The position numbers and the translations under genes were made by a program. A stretch of 48,985 bases of DNA from an uncultured bacterium (lineage in GTDB: Bacteria; Cyanobacteriota; Vampirovibrionia; Gastranaerophilales; Gastranaerophilaceae): assembly GCA_902796925.1 (NCBI GenBank), contig CADBQW010000017.1:1-48985 (forward strand), written 5' to 3'. The notes beneath the pieces were generated by a model that saw nothing but the letters and a program-made list of their open reading frames with translations, ran no database searches and was not told the DNA's origin. Below are positions 1-8,417 of this stretch, piece after piece; the stretch's first letter is position 1, and every line of letters begins with the position of its first letter.

Positions 1-1034
1 AAACCAATTTCAACTTCGTCACTATCAATATTTTTTAAGGCTTCCAAAACATATTTATAGTTAAATGCGATAGTTAAATCTTCCGCATTATAATCGATGT
101 CTATTTTTTCTTCAGATTTACCGGTTTCAGGAGTATCGCCGGTAAGGGTCAAAACATTATTCGCAAATTCCATCTTGACAATTGATGTTTTTTCGTTAAC
201 CAATATTGCAACACGTTCCAAAGCAGATATCATTTGGGAAACATTTACAATCGCTTTTTTAGGACTATCTTGCGGAATTAGTTGATTATACTTAGGAAAT
301 TGTCCGTCTAAAAGCCTGGATATTGTAGTAGTTTTTTGTGTTTTTAGTATTATTTTCTTGTCTTCCGGATAAATTTTCACTGTTTCATCATCAACGAATG
401 CACTCATCTTTATAAATTCGTTTAGAGTTTTAGAAGGGATAAGCAATTGAGTTGATTTTTGATCTTTATTTGAAATTTTTTCTCTCACTCTGGCAAGTCT
501 GTTTCCGTCTGTCGAAGCTATTTCTAAAATTTCATCTGAAATATTGCATACGATACCGGATAATAAATTGCTAATTTCGTATCCTGCAGCAGCAAAACCT
601 GCCTGTTTTACAGCTTTTACAAAAGGTTTCAATTCAATTTCAAATCCATTTTCCTCATTAACTTCAACATTCATAGAATCAACAGGAAATTCATTTGCAG
701 ATATCCCCATAAGATCAAATTTTGAATTTTTGCATGATATTTTAACCACTGAAGCCTCGTCGGATTCAAATGAAATTAGATTATCTGCAAGTTTTGAAAC
801 TATACTATCCAATTTGGTAGAAGGTAATGTAATTTTACCTTGTTCTTCGACTTGAGCATCGACGGTTGCAATAACAGTGTAATCCAGATCCGTTGCAACA
901 AGTTTTATAGAATTTGAATCTGTTGTTTCAATTAAAATATTGAGCAGAACCGGCTGGAGGGCTTTCACTGATGTTGCACGTTCAACAATTTTAATCCCAT
1001 TATATAAATCTTCTTTTTTTACTACAAATTTCAT
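1..1034 (-). CDS. dnaN: DNA polymerase III beta subunit (sliding clamp), 3' end off the left edge
   Basis: The reverse strand reads from ATG (cat at 1032-1034) without a stop to the left edge, giving 344 codons. The protein begins MKFVVKKEDLYNGIKIVER and shows the three-domain clamp pattern: an N-terminal domain with ATDLDYTV, a middle domain containing STDGNRLARVR, and a C-terminal domain starting near FNYKYVLEAL. The usual length is about 365-380 residues, so only some 20-30 C-terminal residues are missing. The clamp encircles DNA and tethers the replicative polymerase. An AAAGGAG ribosome binding site lies 9 nt before the ATG, which fixes the start. The gene is divergent from the ATPase/HNH pair, and no dnaA or recF is seen on the visible side. 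Confidence 0.95.
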   Translation of the reverse strand, partial: MKFVVKKEDLYNGIKIVERATSVKALQPVLLNILIETTDSNSIKLVATDLDYTVIATVDAQVEEQGKITLPSTKLDSIVSKLADNLISFESDEASVVKISCKNSKFDLMGISANEFPVDSMNVEVNEENGFEIELKPFVKAVKQAGFAAAGYEISNLLSGIVCNISDEILEIASTDGNRLARVREKISNKDQKSTQLLIPSKTLNEFIKMSAFVDDETVKIYPEDKKIILKTQKTTTISRLLDGQFPKYNQLIPQDSPKKAIVNVSQMISALERVAILVNEKTSIVKMEFANNVLTLTGDTPETGKSEEKIDIDYNAEDLTIAFNYKYVLEALKNIDSDEVEIG

Positions 1035-1061
1035 AATCCCTACTCCTTTTCTTTTAACAAA

Positions 1062-1090
1062 ATTATATTAATAAAAAACACTAAAGTAAA
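1062..1090 (-). promoter_or_regulatory. Predicted sigma70-type promoter of dnaN
   Basis: Reading the minus strand, TTTACT (1090-1085), a 17-nt spacer and a perfect TATAAT (1067-1062) precede dnaN. The predicted transcript start near 1055 leaves a 5' leader of about 20 nt that still contains the AAAGGAG site. Prediction by eye only. Confidence 0.6.
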
Positions 1091-1216
1091 GTCTTTGTTA
1101 AGTATATATTCTTTATGCATTGTAAAAATTTATAGTTGGTTGTAAAATATTACAACATTTGATACATTTTTTGATATTTTATCGGCATAGTTATCTTTGG
1201 AGTTTGCAAATACAGA

Positions 1217-2230
1217 ATGGGAAGTAATTTAAAATTAATATATATTTGGATTAAGAGTCACAAAAATATAAAACGTTTATCTATACATTTATCGGGAGAA
1301 TACAACTTTAAAATAAGACCGTTCGAAGGACATTTTTTGTTAATGGCTTTTCAAGTAAAGGATTATGTTAGAAATCCTATTTTTGAAGAAAAATATAACT
1401 TTATTTGTGTAACAGGGAATATGGGAGTAGGTAAATCTGCCCTGTTGGATGCTTTATGTTCTGAAAATGTACAAAAGTTGTTAATATATCAAGATATCAA
1501 AACTAGAAAACTTTATTATGTGTCAAATGTCAATGTTACAGTACCTACTTTTATCCAAAAAATTCAAGGCTATCCATCATTTAAATATATTTCGGAAGGA
1601 ACTTTAGCTAAAACAGTATATTCCCCGGCGGATGCCTTATTAAGTACCGGGGAGAGAAATTTGGGAAGATTTAATAAAACTCTTGATAGATATTTTGCTA
1701 ACGGTGAAACTAACTTATGTATAGATGCTATTGACGGAAATTTCCCTCCTAAAATTCAGATGGAATTGATATACAACATAATAAATAATATCAAAAAGTA
1801 TGGATTTAATTTTGCATATAATATTTTTATAGTTACGTACTCTCCGTTTATAATTTCGGATTTTCCAAGAGAACGAGTTTTAAATATCGGTGTGTCCCCC
1901 GGCGGAAATCCGAAACTTGTAAGTAACATAAATAGTCTGGAAAGTATTTATTCAGATACCTTTGCAGGGAATATTCATTCAATTATATCAGATTGTTTTG
2001 AGATAGACGATATAATGGGAAAATATGCGCAATCAAGAATTCAAGATGTAATTATTTTCTTGAACAATAAAAAATTGCCGACTTCAATGCGTATTCAAAC
2101 AGAAATTGATTCTGATGAAAAGGCTAAAATGGTTATTGATTCTATCGGAGAAAAAATTTTGAATAAAATATTATACAAACAGTATGCTAGGAGTTTAAAG
2201 GTTGCAAAAGATAAACAACAAAAACTTTGA
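1217..2230 (+). CDS. AAA/ABC-type ATPase of a Septu-like (PtuA-like) defence pair, compact and degenerate
   Basis: This 337-aa protein starts LKLIYIWIKSHKNIKRL, the N-terminal strand typical of AAA_21/OLD-like ATPases found beside HNH nucleases. Walker A is GNMGVGKS (67-74), the ABC-like signature is LSTGE (142-146) and Walker B ends LCIDAID (167-173). The Asp is therefore followed by Ala171, where the catalytic Glu is expected. The usual switch histidine of THSP is Tyr208 in VTYSPFIISDFP. Only about 70 residues separate Walker A from the signature, much shorter than in usual PtuA-like proteins. The C-terminal part (FAGNIHSIISDCFEIDD) matches the family pattern. It overlaps the HNH gene by 29 nt. 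ATP binding looks possible; hydrolysis is doubtful. Family assignment is by motif, not by search. Confidence 0.78.
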   Translation: MGSNLKLIYIWIKSHKNIKRLSIHLSGEYNFKIRPFEGHFLLMAFQVKDYVRNPIFEEKYNFICVTGNMGVGKSALLDALCSENVQKLLIYQDIKTRKLYYVSNVNVTVPTFIQKIQGYPSFKYISEGTLAKTVYSPADALLSTGERNLGRFNKTLDRYFANGETNLCIDAIDGNFPPKIQMELIYNIINNIKKYGFNFAYNIFIVTYSPFIISDFPRERVLNIGVSPGGNPKLVSNINSLESIYSDTFAGNIHSIISDCFEIDDIMGKYAQSRIQDVIIFLNNKKLPTSMRIQTEIDSDEKAKMVIDSIGEKILNKILYKQYARSLKVAKDKQQKL

Positions 2231-3173
2231 AAAAGCCAAGATTGCATTCAAGAATTATATTGATAGTAAAAATATAAAAGAGAAGTTAGCACAAAAACTT
2301 ACCGATATAAGTACTTGTTATCCGGGTGTTTTTTCAAAAGAAATAAATTATATTATAGATAATTTGGAGAATTTGTTCTATGCAGATGAAGCTTTTATAA
2401 AACAATCGGTAGAAACTCTTTCAGAATTAAATAAAGAAATGCTAACAACGAGAGAGCATATAAATGATAATAATAAAAAACAGTGTGTAGCCTATGAAAT
2501 CAGAAAAATCTTTGAAAATGCATATGAATATTTTTCATACAAAAGATACGGTTCAGCAATAGAATTTGTAGACAGTTTAAACATTGTTGCATGCCCGTAT
2601 TGTAATTTGAACAGTATAATTATATATGATTATAGAGGCTACAAAGTTCGACCGCATTTAGATCACTATTACAGTAAGTCATTATATCCATATCTTGCTT
2701 TGTCATATAGGAATCTTATTCCTTGCTGTCCGGTATGTAATTCCGAGTTAAAAGGCGATAAAGATTTTTGGATAGCACAACATTGTCATCCTTATTTTGA
2801 AAATTTTGATGATATTGCTGAATTTATCGTTGATATTTATTCGCCGTTAATTTTTTCCAATCCAAAAACCCTGCATATTGATTTAGTGTCTAAAAAATAT
2901 AAACAAATATATCAGTTAAAATTAGAAAATATTAAATCTACTTTCAGGTTAAAGATTAGATATAATTCTCGACCTGATTCTATAATAGATGAGTTGTTGA
3001 AAAGGAAAATCTATACACAAGCCTATCAGGATAAATTATACAAACTTTTGAAAAATTGCGGAAATGATATAAGCCCAAAAAAGTTCGACAATGAGTTGAA
3101 AGAATATATTTTTGATGCAAATAAAATTTCAAAATATCCGCTTGCAAAACTGATAAAAGATATTCTTGCCTGA
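2202..3173 (+). CDS. HNH endonuclease of a Septu-like (PtuB-like) defence pair
   Basis: The 323-aa protein has an HNH core between residues 131 and 184: CPYC (131-134), HLDHYYSKS (152-160), NLIP (171-174), CPVC (176-179) and a following NSELKG. The four cysteines would bind zinc, and Asp154/His155 with Asn171 form the nuclease active site. This spacing is that of the nuclease partner of PtuA-type ATPases (TIGR02646-like). The start is TTG at 2202: AGGAG at 2189-2193 lies 8 nt upstream, inside the end of the ATPase gene, so translation is probably coupled. The N-terminal 120 residues are helical and charged. No reverse transcriptase or retron RNA was seen nearby, so a retron-linked form is not supported here. 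Confidence 0.8.
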   Translation: MQKINNKNFEKAKIAFKNYIDSKNIKEKLAQKLTDISTCYPGVFSKEINYIIDNLENLFYADEAFIKQSVETLSELNKEMLTTREHINDNNKKQCVAYEIRKIFENAYEYFSYKRYGSAIEFVDSLNIVACPYCNLNSIIIYDYRGYKVRPHLDHYYSKSLYPYLALSYRNLIPCCPVCNSELKGDKDFWIAQHCHPYFENFDDIAEFIVDIYSPLIFSNPKTLHIDLVSKKYKQIYQLKLENIKSTFRLKIRYNSRPDSIIDELLKRKIYTQAYQDKLYKLLKNCGNDISPKKFDNELKEYIFDANKISKYPLAKLIKDILA

Positions 3174-3303
3174 CAAATACTTTGTCAAAGTTTAGATTTT
3201 TTATAATCTATAAATGTAACAAAAACTTAACAAACAAGTTTTTATGCTAAAGTTTTTTTATAAATATCCGACTATTTAATTGTAAGGAAAAAAGGAATTA
3301 ACA

Positions 3304-3465
3304 ATGGTCAAATTTAATCCCGATATACCAAATGGACAACCAAAATTGGATAAAGATTACTGGAATAAAAACAAACCGAAACAGGAAACCTCTCCTGTAT
3401 TTGAGGTCAATATAAAGGCATCATTTACAAACATGGATAAAATTTCAGTTTTTAAAAAGTCTTAA
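3304..3465 (+). CDS. Small hypothetical protein, 53 aa
   Basis: ATG at 3304 is preceded by a good AAAAGGA ribosome binding site and the frame ends with TAA at 3463. The product begins MVKFNPDIPNGQPKLDKDYW and is rich in Lys, Asn and Pro with no membrane segment or cysteine. An intrinsic terminator follows at 3501-3527, so this looks like a free-standing transcription unit rather than chance. I recognise no family. It sits between the HNH gene and the radical-SAM cluster, and a link to the defence pair cannot be shown. Confidence 0.6.
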   Translation: MVKFNPDIPNGQPKLDKDYWNKNKPKQETSPVFEVNIKASFTNMDKISVFKKS

Positions 3466-3500
3466 TAATAAATTCTTCATTACTTTTCTACGTGTTTTAA

Positions 3501-3527
3501 AAAGAACTCTATTTAGAGTTCTTTTTT
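3501..3527 (+). terminator. Intrinsic terminator after the 53-aa gene
   Basis: AAAGAACTCT (3501-3510), loop ATTT, and AGAGTTCTTT (3515-3524) form a perfect 10-bp stem followed by a T-run to 3527. Confidence 0.85.
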
Positions 3528-3619
3528 ATATAGCTATAGTTTTGAAAAATGTCTTCATTAAACTTTACAGTATGCCTTATTGAAAAATTTATAGTTAAAT
3601 TATTATAAGGGGCATACAT

Positions 3620-3967
3620 ATGACAGATGAAATGAAGCGAAAAGTTATAGATATATTTTCAAATCACAACAACAAGGAGATACCGGAAACTGGAAAAAAT
3701 CAGGTGAAACTTTATGCCGGATTTAATTATGTGAGGATAGATAAAGATACAAACGGTAAAAAATTCAATCGAGAACATCTTTTGAAGTATGCAGAAAAGT
3801 GTCATTATATTGTTCGTGTAATGCGTGAGGTTGGAGGCGAAGTTTTATTGTATAATTATGATGTACCCGGTTCAGATTTGTATAAGTTTTTAAAATCATT
3901 TGAAGATAACAAAATGGATGGTGAAATTATTGAACTGGATAAATATTTTCCGGAGGATTTGGCTTAA
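3620..3967 (+). CDS. Hypothetical protein, 115 aa
   Basis: A soluble, mixed-charge protein (MTDEMKRKVIDIFSNHNNKE at the start) with no signal peptide, membrane segment or cysteine pair. The middle, HYIVRVMREVGGEVLLYNYD, looks like a small alpha/beta fold. A GGGG stretch 7 nt before the ATG may serve as the ribosome binding site. The stop is 2 nt before the radical-SAM gene, and GGAGGA within its last codons probably serves as that gene's ribosome binding site, so the two are likely translated together. No family recognised; position suggests a partner of the radical-SAM/RNase E/G cluster. Confidence 0.7.
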   Translation: MTDEMKRKVIDIFSNHNNKEIPETGKNQVKLYAGFNYVRIDKDTNGKKFNREHLLKYAEKCHYIVRVMREVGGEVLLYNYDVPGSDLYKFLKSFEDNKMDGEIIELDKYFPEDLA

Positions 3968-3969
3968 AT

Positions 3970-6492
3970 ATGAATAGCAAATTTTTTGAAGACTACAGGC
4001 TTAACCTTTTACATTGTGATAAACCCTATCAGTATGTAGGAGGTGAATTCTTATCTGAAAATAAAGATTTTGATAGTGCAAAAGTTAGGGTAGCGCTAGC
4101 GTTTCCGGATAAATATGAAATTGGAATCAGTAATCTTGGGCTAAGAGTTTTGTACGGACAGATTAATAAATGTCCAAACTATATGGCAGATAGGGTTTAC
4201 GCACCCCAGCCGGATTTTGAACCCAAAGAATTGTATGCTTTGGAAAGTAAACGATCCATAAAAGACTTTGATGTAGTTGGGTTTTCATTACAATATGAGA
4301 TGGCATACCCTACTGTATTAAAAATGTTGGAAATGTCAGGAATTCACTACCGTAATGAAGATAGGCGTGATGATGAACCTATAATTATAGCAGGCGGTCC
4401 CTGTACGTTCAATCCGTTGCCTATGTCTGATTTTATTGATGTATTCACAGTTGGGGATGGTGAGGATTCTATAATTGAGATTTGCGAAATTCTAGAAAGA
4501 ACAAAAGGTTTACCTAGAAAAGACAGGATAAAGGCTCTTTGTGAAGGGGAAAATTCCGGTAGATGGTCGAAAATAATAGGAGGTAAGGTAAAAAAGCGAA
4601 TTGCCCAATTAACATATGATAGTGCGCTAAAGAAGTACCCGATACCTTTTTCGACATCTGTTCAGGACAGGGCTGTTATAGAAATTCGTCGCGGGTGTGG
4701 GAGAATGTGTCGTTTTTGCCAGCCGGGACATGTTACTTTACCATTGAGGGAGCGTTCGGCCGAGGATATTATAAAAATAACAAAAGAATTAATAAAAAAT
4801 ACAGGGTATGAAGAATTTTCATTACTTTCGCTTTCTTCAAACGATTATACCAACATAAATCCGGTAGTAAAGGAATTAAATAATTCTTTTTCTGATAAAA
4901 AAATATCGGTATCGTTGCCGAGTCAAAGAATTGATGGGTTTAATCTTGAACTTGCAAAGATGGTTCAGAGTGTCAGAAAATCTACAATGACGCTTGCCCC
5001 AGAAGCCGGGAGTCAAAGATTGCGAGATGTCATAAAGAAAAATATCTCGGATGATGAAATAATAAATGTAATAAAAACCTTATACGAAAATGGGTGGTCA
5101 AGGGTAAAATTATATTTTATTTGCGGATTGCCTACAGAGACTCAGGATGATATGGATGAGATGGCTCACTTATTAGAAAGGATAAAATGGAAGTGTAAAA
5201 ATTTAAAACGTGAAAAAGGGTTGCAACATAGTATGGATTTAACTTGTACACTTTCAATTCTTGTACCTAAACCGTTTACGCCGTTCCAGTGGTGCGGACA
5301 AATGAAAGAAGAAGAAGTTAAAGAACATATTTATAGGCTAAAAGATAAAACAAAACACATAAAGGGGCTAAAAATAAATTATCATGACAGTATAATGTCT
5401 AAGATTGAGGCCGTTCTAACTCGGGGAACAGATATGTTATGTAATTATATTGAATTATTATACCAAAAAGGGTGCTATCTTGATGCCTGGGGTGAATATT
5501 TTAAAGAAGATATATGGAAAGAGGCAGCAAGTGAGTTGAATATAGATTTGGATGGGTTGGCCTCAATGGAATATAAATTAGATGAGGAACTTCCTTGGAA
5601 TTTCATAGATATTGGGGTTAATCAGGAATGGCTTAAAGAGGAATACAGAAAAGCAATGAGTATAAAAACTTCCGATAAAATGCAATTCCAACCTACCTGC
5701 CAACAGCAATGTGTGAATTGCGGGGTTTGCAAAAACTTAAAAGTAAAACGTGTGTTTGATACCCCGTACGAACCAAAACTTGAAAACAAAGTAAAAATTG
5801 AACATGACAATTCAAAGACAAATCGTTTCAGAATTAAACTTACCAAAACAGGTATCTTAAAGTATTTTTCGCATCTTGATTGGCAAAATACATTTTTCAA
5901 GGCAATTCAAAGAACCGGACTTGATGTTGCATATACTCAAGGCTTCAATCCTACAATGAAAATCTCTATGGGTATAGCATTACCGTTGTTTCAAGAAAGT
6001 GTCACGGAGCTTGTTGATATTGATATTTTTGATAATTTGAAAGAAAATGAACTTAAAGATATCATTGAAAAAGTTCTTCCGCAGGGATGCAAAATAATAG
6101 AAGTTAAAGAAATAAAAGAACGTGGTCAAAACTTTAAATCAATTGATACCACTGCACAGTGGGCTGAATATAAAATCGAATTAATAAGAAATTCTAAATT
6201 ACCTCTTTACGAGATTGAAGATTTCGTGTATAATGTAGAAAAGTTTCTCTCTAACGAAGAAATTGTTATCGAAAAGAGAGGTAAAAAAGGTATTACAAAA
6301 ACAACAGATATAAAACAATCCATAAAATCATACAGATTTGAAGATGGAGTTCTGTTCATAGTTTTGAAAACCGGTCAAGGAACATCTATTCCAGCATTAA
6401 GGGCTGATGTATTGATGGAGAATATAATTTCTGGTGTACCCTTCAATATAACAAGAATGAGGTTCTTTGATGAAAATATGAAAGAGTTATAG
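3970..6492 (+). CDS. B12-binding-like radical SAM protein fused to DUF2344 (TIGR03960/TIGR03936)
   Basis: An 840-aa fusion. Residues about 40-180 look like a cobalamin-binding-type Rossmann domain (VGFSLQYEMAYPTVLKML; AGGPCTFNP). The radical SAM domain carries RRGCGRMCRFCQPGH with cysteines 243, 247 and 250 for the 4Fe-4S cluster. A second cysteine group, CQQQCVNCGVC, lies near residue 580. The final ~220 residues are DUF2344 (KYFSHLDW; TQGFNPTMKISMG). This fused architecture is commonly encoded next to ribonuclease E/G, as here with a 20-nt gap. The substrate is unknown; the neighbourhood suggests RNA or ribosome-related modification. The N-terminal domain lacks an obvious DxHxxG cobalamin motif. 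Confidence 0.88.
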   Translation: MNSKFFEDYRLNLLHCDKPYQYVGGEFLSENKDFDSAKVRVALAFPDKYEIGISNLGLRVLYGQINKCPNYMADRVYAPQPDFEPKELYALESKRSIKDFDVVGFSLQYEMAYPTVLKMLEMSGIHYRNEDRRDDEPIIIAGGPCTFNPLPMSDFIDVFTVGDGEDSIIEICEILERTKGLPRKDRIKALCEGENSGRWSKIIGGKVKKRIAQLTYDSALKKYPIPFSTSVQDRAVIEIRRGCGRMCRFCQPGHVTLPLRERSAEDIIKITKELIKNTGYEEFSLLSLSSNDYTNINPVVKELNNSFSDKKISVSLPSQRIDGFNLELAKMVQSVRKSTMTLAPEAGSQRLRDVIKKNISDDEIINVIKTLYENGWSRVKLYFICGLPTETQDDMDEMAHLLERIKWKCKNLKREKGLQHSMDLTCTLSILVPKPFTPFQWCGQMKEEEVKEHIYRLKDKTKHIKGLKINYHDSIMSKIEAVLTRGTDMLCNYIELLYQKGCYLDAWGEYFKEDIWKEAASELNIDLDGLASMEYKLDEELPWNFIDIGVNQEWLKEEYRKAMSIKTSDKMQFQPTCQQQCVNCGVCKNLKVKRVFDTPYEPKLENKVKIEHDNSKTNRFRIKLTKTGILKYFSHLDWQNTFFKAIQRTGLDVAYTQGFNPTMKISMGIALPLFQESVTELVDIDIFDNLKENELKDIIEKVLPQGCKIIEVKEIKERGQNFKSIDTTAQWAEYKIELIRNSKLPLYEIEDFVYNVEKFLSNEEIVIEKRGKKGITKTTDIKQSIKSYRFEDGVLFIVLKTGQGTSIPALRADVLMENIISGVPFNITRMRFFDENMKEL

Positions 6493-6512
6493 TATTTTAT
6501 AAAGGATTAGTT

Positions 6513-8417
6513 ATGGCAAATTTTAACAGAAATCGTAAATTTAATTCAAACAAAAAACAGCAATTACACGTAGAGAACAAGGATAACAAAATAATAATTG
6601 CCGAGCGTGATAATATTGCGGCCGTTTTAGAAAACGGTCGAGTAACTGATTTTTATATTCATCGCGGTGATGTGTTATTAGGTGATGTATATATTGCAAC
6701 GGTCGATAATATTTTACCAAGTATAGATGCGGCATTCGTAAATGTAGGCACTGACAAAATGGGGTTTTTGCACGCTGAAGATGTTATGGGCAAAGGTTCT
6801 TTGAAGGAAAAACTTACTCCGAAACAAAAACTTGTTGTACAAGTAACAAAGGAGCCAACAGGGCATAAAGGTCCGAGGGTTACAACAGAAATAAGTTTGC
6901 CGGGAAGATTTTTGGTATTGATGCCATATGAGACAGGGGTTAGCATAAGCAAAAAAATTGAAAACTCGAGAGAACGTGCAAGATTAAAATCTATTGTAAA
7001 TTTGATAAAACCTGTAGGCGTTGGTGTTATTATAAGGACAGAAGCCGAAGGTCTTTCTGAGGCTGATATCCAAGAAGACTTAGAGATCCTTCTTGAAAAA
7101 TGGAATAATATTATTACTTCAGCAGAGACTCTTGATGCACCAAATCTTGTATACAGAGATCAGGATTTGTTATATAGTGTTATTCGTGAGGCATGTACTG
7201 AAGATACAAGAGAAATTGTAGTAGATACCCCGTTTGCACTAAGTCGTGTTCAGAATATTTTACAAAACTGGCATATGGCTAAGAATGTAAATGTCACTTT
7301 GTATAAAGGTAAAGATCCCGTTCTTGTTGCATACGATATTCATAAAGAAATAAAGGCTGCTCTTAATATCAAGGTTAACCTTCCATCCGGCGGATACCTA
7401 TTTATCCAGCAAACAGAGGCTCTTACGGTTATAGATGTTAACTCAGGTAAATTTATTAGTTCTGCTACTCAAGATGAAACTATCCTAAAAACAAATATCG
7501 AAGCTGTTCATGAAATTGCCCGTCAATTACGTTTAAGGAATATTGGCGGAATGATTATCATCGACTTTATTGATATGATGACAAGAGCTGATAAACTTGC
7601 GATGATGGAAGAATTGGAAATTGCACTTGAACCTGATAAAGCAAAACCTCAAGTAGGTCAGCTTTCTGATTTAGGTTTAGTGGAACTTACCCGTCACAGA
7701 CAAGGGCAGAGTCTATCTGAAATCTTTACAAAGCGTTGCCCTCATTGTCAAGGTAGCGGTTACTTTATGAATGAATTGAATTTCGCAACTCCGACTGCCG
7801 AAGGCGAATACCGTGCTAAGCAGGCAAAAATTAAAATGCCAATAAATAATGGAAACAATAAAACAAAAGATCAACCAAAACCTATAAACGAAGTGGTAGA
7901 AGTCGACGTCGAATCGGAAAAGCAACCTGTTGAAGTAGCGGTTGAAAATCCTTCTGAAGTTGCTCAAAATACTATTGAGCAGAAAAACAGCAGGAAACAG
8001 CGTAACAACAAGTTCAATCGTTCCGGGAAAAATAGAGTCCAAGATGATAACGAAATTTCTCAGGTTGAGGTGAAAAGTTCAGAAACGGAAAAATCTCCTG
8101 TTAATGAGTCAACGCCAATAGCAGAAACTGATGCTGCAAAACCTCAAGAGAACAAACCCGAAAATGAAAAATCCAAAAAACTTCCTCGTAAGGCTAAAAA
8201 AAGCTCAAAAAAAGCTGCGCAAAAAGCAGAAATTGAAATAGAGGTCAAGGAGCTCCCTCAACAAGAACCTGTACAAGAAGTTGTCAAACCTGGCAAAAGA
8301 ACGTCAAGATCAAAAGCAAAAGCTGAAAAAGAAATTGATGATACCGTTATTGATTCGCCGGAAAAGAAACCACGTAAACGCAGAACAACCCAAAAAGAGG
8401 TAAAAGTTGAAGAATAA
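6513..8417 (+). CDS. rng: Ribonuclease E/G family endoribonuclease
   Basis: 634 aa. The S1 RNA-binding domain spans about residues 36-120 (RGDVLLGDVYIATVDNILPS). The catalytic DNase-I-like domain has the two metal-binding aspartates, D308 (TVIDVNSGKF) and D351 (IIIDFIDM). The zinc-link CPHC is at 409-412. Residues ~440-634 form a low-complexity charged tail rich in Lys, Glu, Pro and Gln, resembling the disordered degradosome tail of RNase E more than the short RNase G. The enzyme processes rRNA and mRNA. AAGGA precedes the ATG. The 3' end overlaps the next small gene by 11 nt. Confidence 0.93.
   Translation: MANFNRNRKFNSNKKQQLHVENKDNKIIIAERDNIAAVLENGRVTDFYIHRGDVLLGDVYIATVDNILPSIDAAFVNVGTDKMGFLHAEDVMGKGSLKEKLTPKQKLVVQVTKEPTGHKGPRVTTEISLPGRFLVLMPYETGVSISKKIENSRERARLKSIVNLIKPVGVGVIIRTEAEGLSEADIQEDLEILLEKWNNIITSAETLDAPNLVYRDQDLLYSVIREACTEDTREIVVDTPFALSRVQNILQNWHMAKNVNVTLYKGKDPVLVAYDIHKEIKAALNIKVNLPSGGYLFIQQTEALTVIDVNSGKFISSATQDETILKTNIEAVHEIARQLRLRNIGGMIIIDFIDMMTRADKLAMMEELEIALEPDKAKPQVGQLSDLGLVELTRHRQGQSLSEIFTKRCPHCQGSGYFMNELNFATPTAEGEYRAKQAKIKMPINNGNNKTKDQPKPINEVVEVDVESEKQPVEVAVENPSEVAQNTIEQKNSRKQRNNKFNRSGKNRVQDDNEISQVEVKSSETEKSPVNESTPIAETDAAKPQENKPENEKSKKLPRKAKKSSKKAAQKAEIEIEVKELPQQEPVQEVVKPGKRTSRSKAKAEKEIDDTVIDSPEKKPRKRRTTQKEVKVEE

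Follow-up and report, generated by a model that had tools for sequence, protein, structure and literature searches.

Two overlapping genes on a contig of an uncultured Gastranaerophilaceae bacterium (CADBQW010000017.1, positions 1 to 48,985, hereafter the window) on balance appear to be a partly decayed defence pair of the PDC-M62 (Septu) type, the ATPase of which was crippled in this lineage. Decay is favoured over a working sensor that does without ATP hydrolysis, and a disabled copy is the most likely explanation because loci with a broken ATPase next to an intact nuclease recur in PDC-M62. The features of the locus are as follows.

1217-2230, plus strand: ATPase ORF, PDC-M62A-like, 337 aa, without an arm of about 300 aa (PADLOC PDC-M62A, 108 bits in two stretches)
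1415-1438, plus strand: Walker A motif GNMGVGKS, aa 67-74, with K73 and the glycines kept and the conserved N69 changed to Met (alignment of relatives)
1550-1640, plus strand: junction where relatives have a helical arm (about residues 140-460 of the full-length relative L073) that is absent here (alignment, AF2 models)
1640-1654, plus strand: ABC signature LSTGE, aa 142-146, intact (alignment of relatives)
1724-1729, plus strand: Walker B within LCIDAID, with D170 kept and the catalytic Glu changed to A171, codon GCT (acidic in 30/30 relatives)
1745-1747, plus strand: D-loop His changed to P177 (alignment of relatives)
1838-1840, plus strand: switch His changed to Y208, in VTYSP (His in 29/30 relatives)
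2189-2193, plus strand: AGGAG, resembling a ribosome-binding site, 8 nt 5' of the HNH TTG and within the ATPase 3' end (sequence)
2202-3173, plus strand: HNH nuclease ORF, PDC-M62B, 323 aa, TTG start, overlapping the ATPase by 29 nt (PADLOC PDC-M62B, 177.8 bits)
2592-2741, plus strand: HNH/zinc core C131-P-Y-C134, D154-H155, N171, C176, C179-N180, every invariant column kept

Judged by its sequence, the pair is the PADLOC candidate system PDC-M62, which is related to Septu, and is neither a canonical PtuAB nor a member of TIGR02646. The HNH ORF matched PDC-M62B over its full length (profile positions 1-320 of 328). The window ATPase matched only two stretches of the PDC-M62A profile, 2-100 and 410-590 of 601. 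The HMM comparison suggested by the first-pass annotation placed the pair far under both curated cut-offs, the HNH scoring 18.5 bits against the PtuB model NF041761 (cut-off 150) and 19.6 bits against TIGR02646 (cut-off 52.15). The description of a Septu-like ATPase/HNH pair that has lost key catalytic residues holds, as the pair is PDC-M62 by PADLOC and Septu PtuA is the best structural match of a full-length relative. A sequence search of the PDB returned nothing meaningful. In genomes of the Bacillus cereus group, 203 PADLOC calls of PDC-M62 were duplicates of DefenseFinder Septu calls (2025; PMC11811056).

The segment between Walker A and LSTGE, described earlier as unusually short, is indeed so: the middle of the PDC-M62A profile (about 101-409) is missing from the window ATPase, which amounts to an arm of roughly 300 residues. 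In the AlphaFold2 model of L073 (mean pLDDT 76) this arm is large, mostly helical and separates the P-loop lobe from the signature; it was found in every unbroken close relative read. Unbroken relative ATPases were mostly 560-700 aa long; the shortest others in the alignment were L107 (420 aa, from a viral contig with no HNH seen) and L114 (511 aa, E. coli). Even without the arm, the predicted fold of the window ATPase is that of an ABC/SMC head (AF2, pLDDT 72). Foldseek with this model ranked retron/Septu PtuA chains first, while VIA-align gave Z 13.3 to PtuA 9e91 and 14.3 to SMC1, a tie that leaves PtuA and SMC unseparated. The full-length L073 aligned to Septu PtuA (8eea) with Z 19.3 versus 15.0 for the best SMC head; this clear preference indicates that the ATPase type is PtuA-like. 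A search of a viral structure library gave generic ABC-type matches only. The models suggest that the arm loss was a secondary event.

An alignment set the window ATPase against 30 relatives, including some more distant ones. The residue following the Walker B acidic residue was acidic in all 30 (DE, with ED in L075 and L079 and EE in L067 and L115), and the switch His was present in 29, the exception being Asn in Priestia L111. The Walker A Asn, Met in the window, was Arg in one distant relative (L116), and the D-loop His, Pro in the window, was kept by nearly all relatives (Asn in L122, Asp in L116). The Walker A motif, the Ala after the Walker B Asp and the Tyr at the switch position were all correctly read in the first-pass annotation, which passed over N69M within Walker A and H177P in the D-loop. 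Judging from these residues, ATP binding is the most that the window ATPase could achieve, and hydrolysis is not expected. We also observed that the ATPase of the L111 locus (833-4319, Priestia megaterium plasmid) is PDC-M62-like and full-length, with DE at Walker B and Asn at the switch (ATNVP), and that the two ED loci, L075 (3856-6338) and L079 (2548-5062), cluster together and both have shorter HNH partners.

The HNH protein retained 15 of 15 universal columns in an alignment of family members. The four zinc cysteines and the Asp-His/Asn core noticed earlier (C131, C134, C176, C179, D154, H155 and N171) are all there, and so is N180. Of 17 members, the window ATPase kept the fewest conserved columns (16/20 universal columns, 41/69 at 75%), which speaks for decay.

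Full-length pairs occur in the same bacterial family (L007, L008, L010, L015, L072-L075 and L077-L081), and others are carried by plasmids from several phyla, the nearest relatives of the window pair being only about 35% identical (HNH). None of the 30 aligned relatives had the Ala or the Tyr or lacked the arm, so that this set of lesions is private to the window ATPase among them. A compact sister was found neither with the ATPase as query (99 relatives, 386 genomes of the phylum) nor with the HNH (383 genomes of the family), nor in IMG/VR, phage or plasmid collections. Scans of genome contigs with each protein, which detect close relatives only, gave no match. The suggestion that Ala and Tyr might be conserved among relatives, marking a distinct working mode or subtype, is therefore unsupported, with 0/30 relatives sharing any of the three changes and no sister in the searches.

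Two plasmid matches, from Segatella and Bacteroides, first appeared to be compact sisters but are in fact broken genes. Four plasmid loci show that damage of this kind, in which the ATPase is disabled and the neighbouring nuclease stays intact, recurs in PDC-M62.

L067, Segatella plasmid, 2967-7907: a transposase separates the Walker A part of the ATPase from its C part; HNH open
L071, Bacteroides plasmid, 2596-5723: ATPase gene in two pieces; HNH open
L117, Pseudomonas plasmid, 1767-4193: one in-frame stop in the ATPase; HNH open
L120, Enterobacter plasmid, 322-4175: ATPase halves about 1.5 kb apart; HNH open

The last of these lies on a conjugative plasmid of Enterobacter roggenkampii, where an integrase gene and mcr-10.1 are located near the broken copy (L120, 5973-7324).

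In a working PDC-M62 system, by homology, the ABC ATPase would bind nucleotide as a sandwich dimer and control the HNH nuclease, which would kill or arrest the infected cell. In the window copy, the stretch from Walker A to the signature would have lost its helical arm to an in-frame internal deletion, and the catalytic Glu, the switch His and one D-loop His would have been substituted. Defence by the family mechanism has probably been lost. With no working ATPase the HNH is probably silent, and the HNH frame may persist for this reason and because decay is incomplete. Eco7 PtuA or PtuB expressed singly caused no growth arrest (PMC11555353).

Also in favour of decay, no other ATPase terminal branch was as long as that of the window (1.71), and the window pair had the highest ATPase/HNH divergence ratio, though with a z of just 2.3. 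The raw ratio of terminal branches was 1.5 for the window versus 2.2 for L072, which makes wholesale relaxation over the whole branch unlikely. The ATPase frame of 337 codons is open, which speaks against decay, as does normal codon usage. In a simple neutral simulation with point mutations only, the frame outlasted the loss of 4-5 conserved codons in just 3-4% of runs, a figure that overstates maintained function if some of the losses date from a time when the gene remained under constraint. The A171 codon (GCT) lies two nucleotide steps from any Glu codon and the M69 codon (ATG) at least two changes from the ancestral residue, and thus the loss is not brand new.

The same observations can be read in favour of an arm-less pseudo-ATPase that still functions, which we regard as possible but unlikely. 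Such a protein would hold ATP through Walker A, the Walker B Asp and the signature in a locked head dimer, with the HNH bound by the C-terminal tail and released or activated on a change in nucleotide level, without hydrolysis. Besides the open frame at low neutral odds and the two-step changes A171 and M69, this reading is consistent with the fully conserved HNH, with a model that keeps an SMC/PtuA-type head, and with ATP-binding and signature residues that are mostly kept. The losses lean to the Walker B-D-loop segment (5/12 residues kept) and the switch (9/16) rather than the C-tail (14/22), which together with the remaining nucleotide-binding and signature residues is comparable to that of other divergent members; this contrast concerns few residues. 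In Retron-Eco8, an OLD system, the ATP-binding residues are needed, yet DNA is cleaved without ATP hydrolysis (PMC12887533). Against this reading, no second example came from any search, every unbroken close relative read has the arm, and ATP-site mutations abolish defence in tested relatives: Septu from E. coli B88, which cleaves tRNA-Tyr, requires the Walker A/B and HNH residues, and PtuA Walker A/B mutants abolish immunity (PMC13096335), as do ATP-site mutants of Retron-Eco8, H334 included (PMC12887533). It is possible, though unlikely, that the locus is a naturally pared-down Septu-type effector complex, with an arm-less ABC head that would bind ATP, be unable to hydrolyse it and serve the intact HNH nuclease purely as a sensor of nucleotide occupancy.

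An assembly or binning artefact, with the deletion or the locus made of wrongly joined sequences, is improbable. The genome is fragmented (123 contigs), the contig breaks in dnaN about 1.1 kb from the pair, and the junctions flanking the pair are unconserved in a genome of the same genus (G001). Contig C27 of this genome repeats the dnaN end found at the contig start (3-86) with 100% identity over 28 aa, probably an assembly overlap of adjacent contigs. On the other hand, the reading frame is preserved across the junction, the independent substitutions A171, P177 and Y208 elsewhere indicate real divergence, and codon usage is normal and matching across both ORFs. Even less probable is that the HNH was co-opted alone, with the ATPase frame kept merely as a translated leader feeding the HNH start by coupling. 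The TTG at 2202 and the AGGAG do sit within the ATPase 3' end, and the HNH is conserved and the ATPase less so; a leader, however, would not need a conserved ATPase tail and ATP-binding residues, and the HNH has its own Shine-Dalgarno-like sequence. A promoter scan gave no excess over shuffled sequences.

By inspection, the ORFs adjoining the pair resemble dnaN, a radical SAM protein and an RNase E/G-like protein. A small open frame of about 53 codons (MVKFNPDIPNGQPKLDKDYW...) lies at 3304-3465 between the pair and the downstream operon. When the site was compared with four genomes (G001, G002, G003 and G204), no clean empty site emerged, since in these genomes dnaN does not adjoin the downstream genes.

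Compared with known systems, the pair resembles PDC-M62 in gene order, full-length HNH and the N- and C-terminal parts of the ATPase, and differs in the missing arm, Walker B Glu and switch His. With E. coli Septu PtuA/PtuB (8eea) and the PtuAB of retron I-A it shares an ABC ATPase with an HNH partner and, judging from L073 (SMC heads scoring about 15), a PtuA-type fold, whereas its NF041761 and TIGR02646 scores and the loss of arm and catalytic residues set it apart. Membership of Septu would further entail a 6:2 or 4:2 PtuA/PtuB complex with phage-induced nuclease activity. Retron I-A carries a reverse transcriptase and an ncRNA beside PtuAB, while no reverse transcriptase was recognised by inspection among the ORFs adjoining the window pair. 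The C-terminal half of the ATPase also matched TIGR04435 (restriction system-associated AAA ATPase) at 41.6 bits, below the 300-bit cut-off, and no restriction genes were recognised among adjacent ORFs. ATP bound by PtuA reportedly keeps the E. coli Septu complex inhibited, in which case a sensor that does not hydrolyse ATP would be a small departure rather than an entirely new mode.

If the window copy is functional, both the arm and ATP hydrolysis would be dispensable in a Septu-type system, and it would provide a clean natural test of the role of ATP. If it is decayed, as we favour, it adds to the pattern of the four plasmid loci in which the PDC-M62 ATPase is broken and the HNH frame open, and it would warn against calling PDC-M62 loci active from the nuclease alone.
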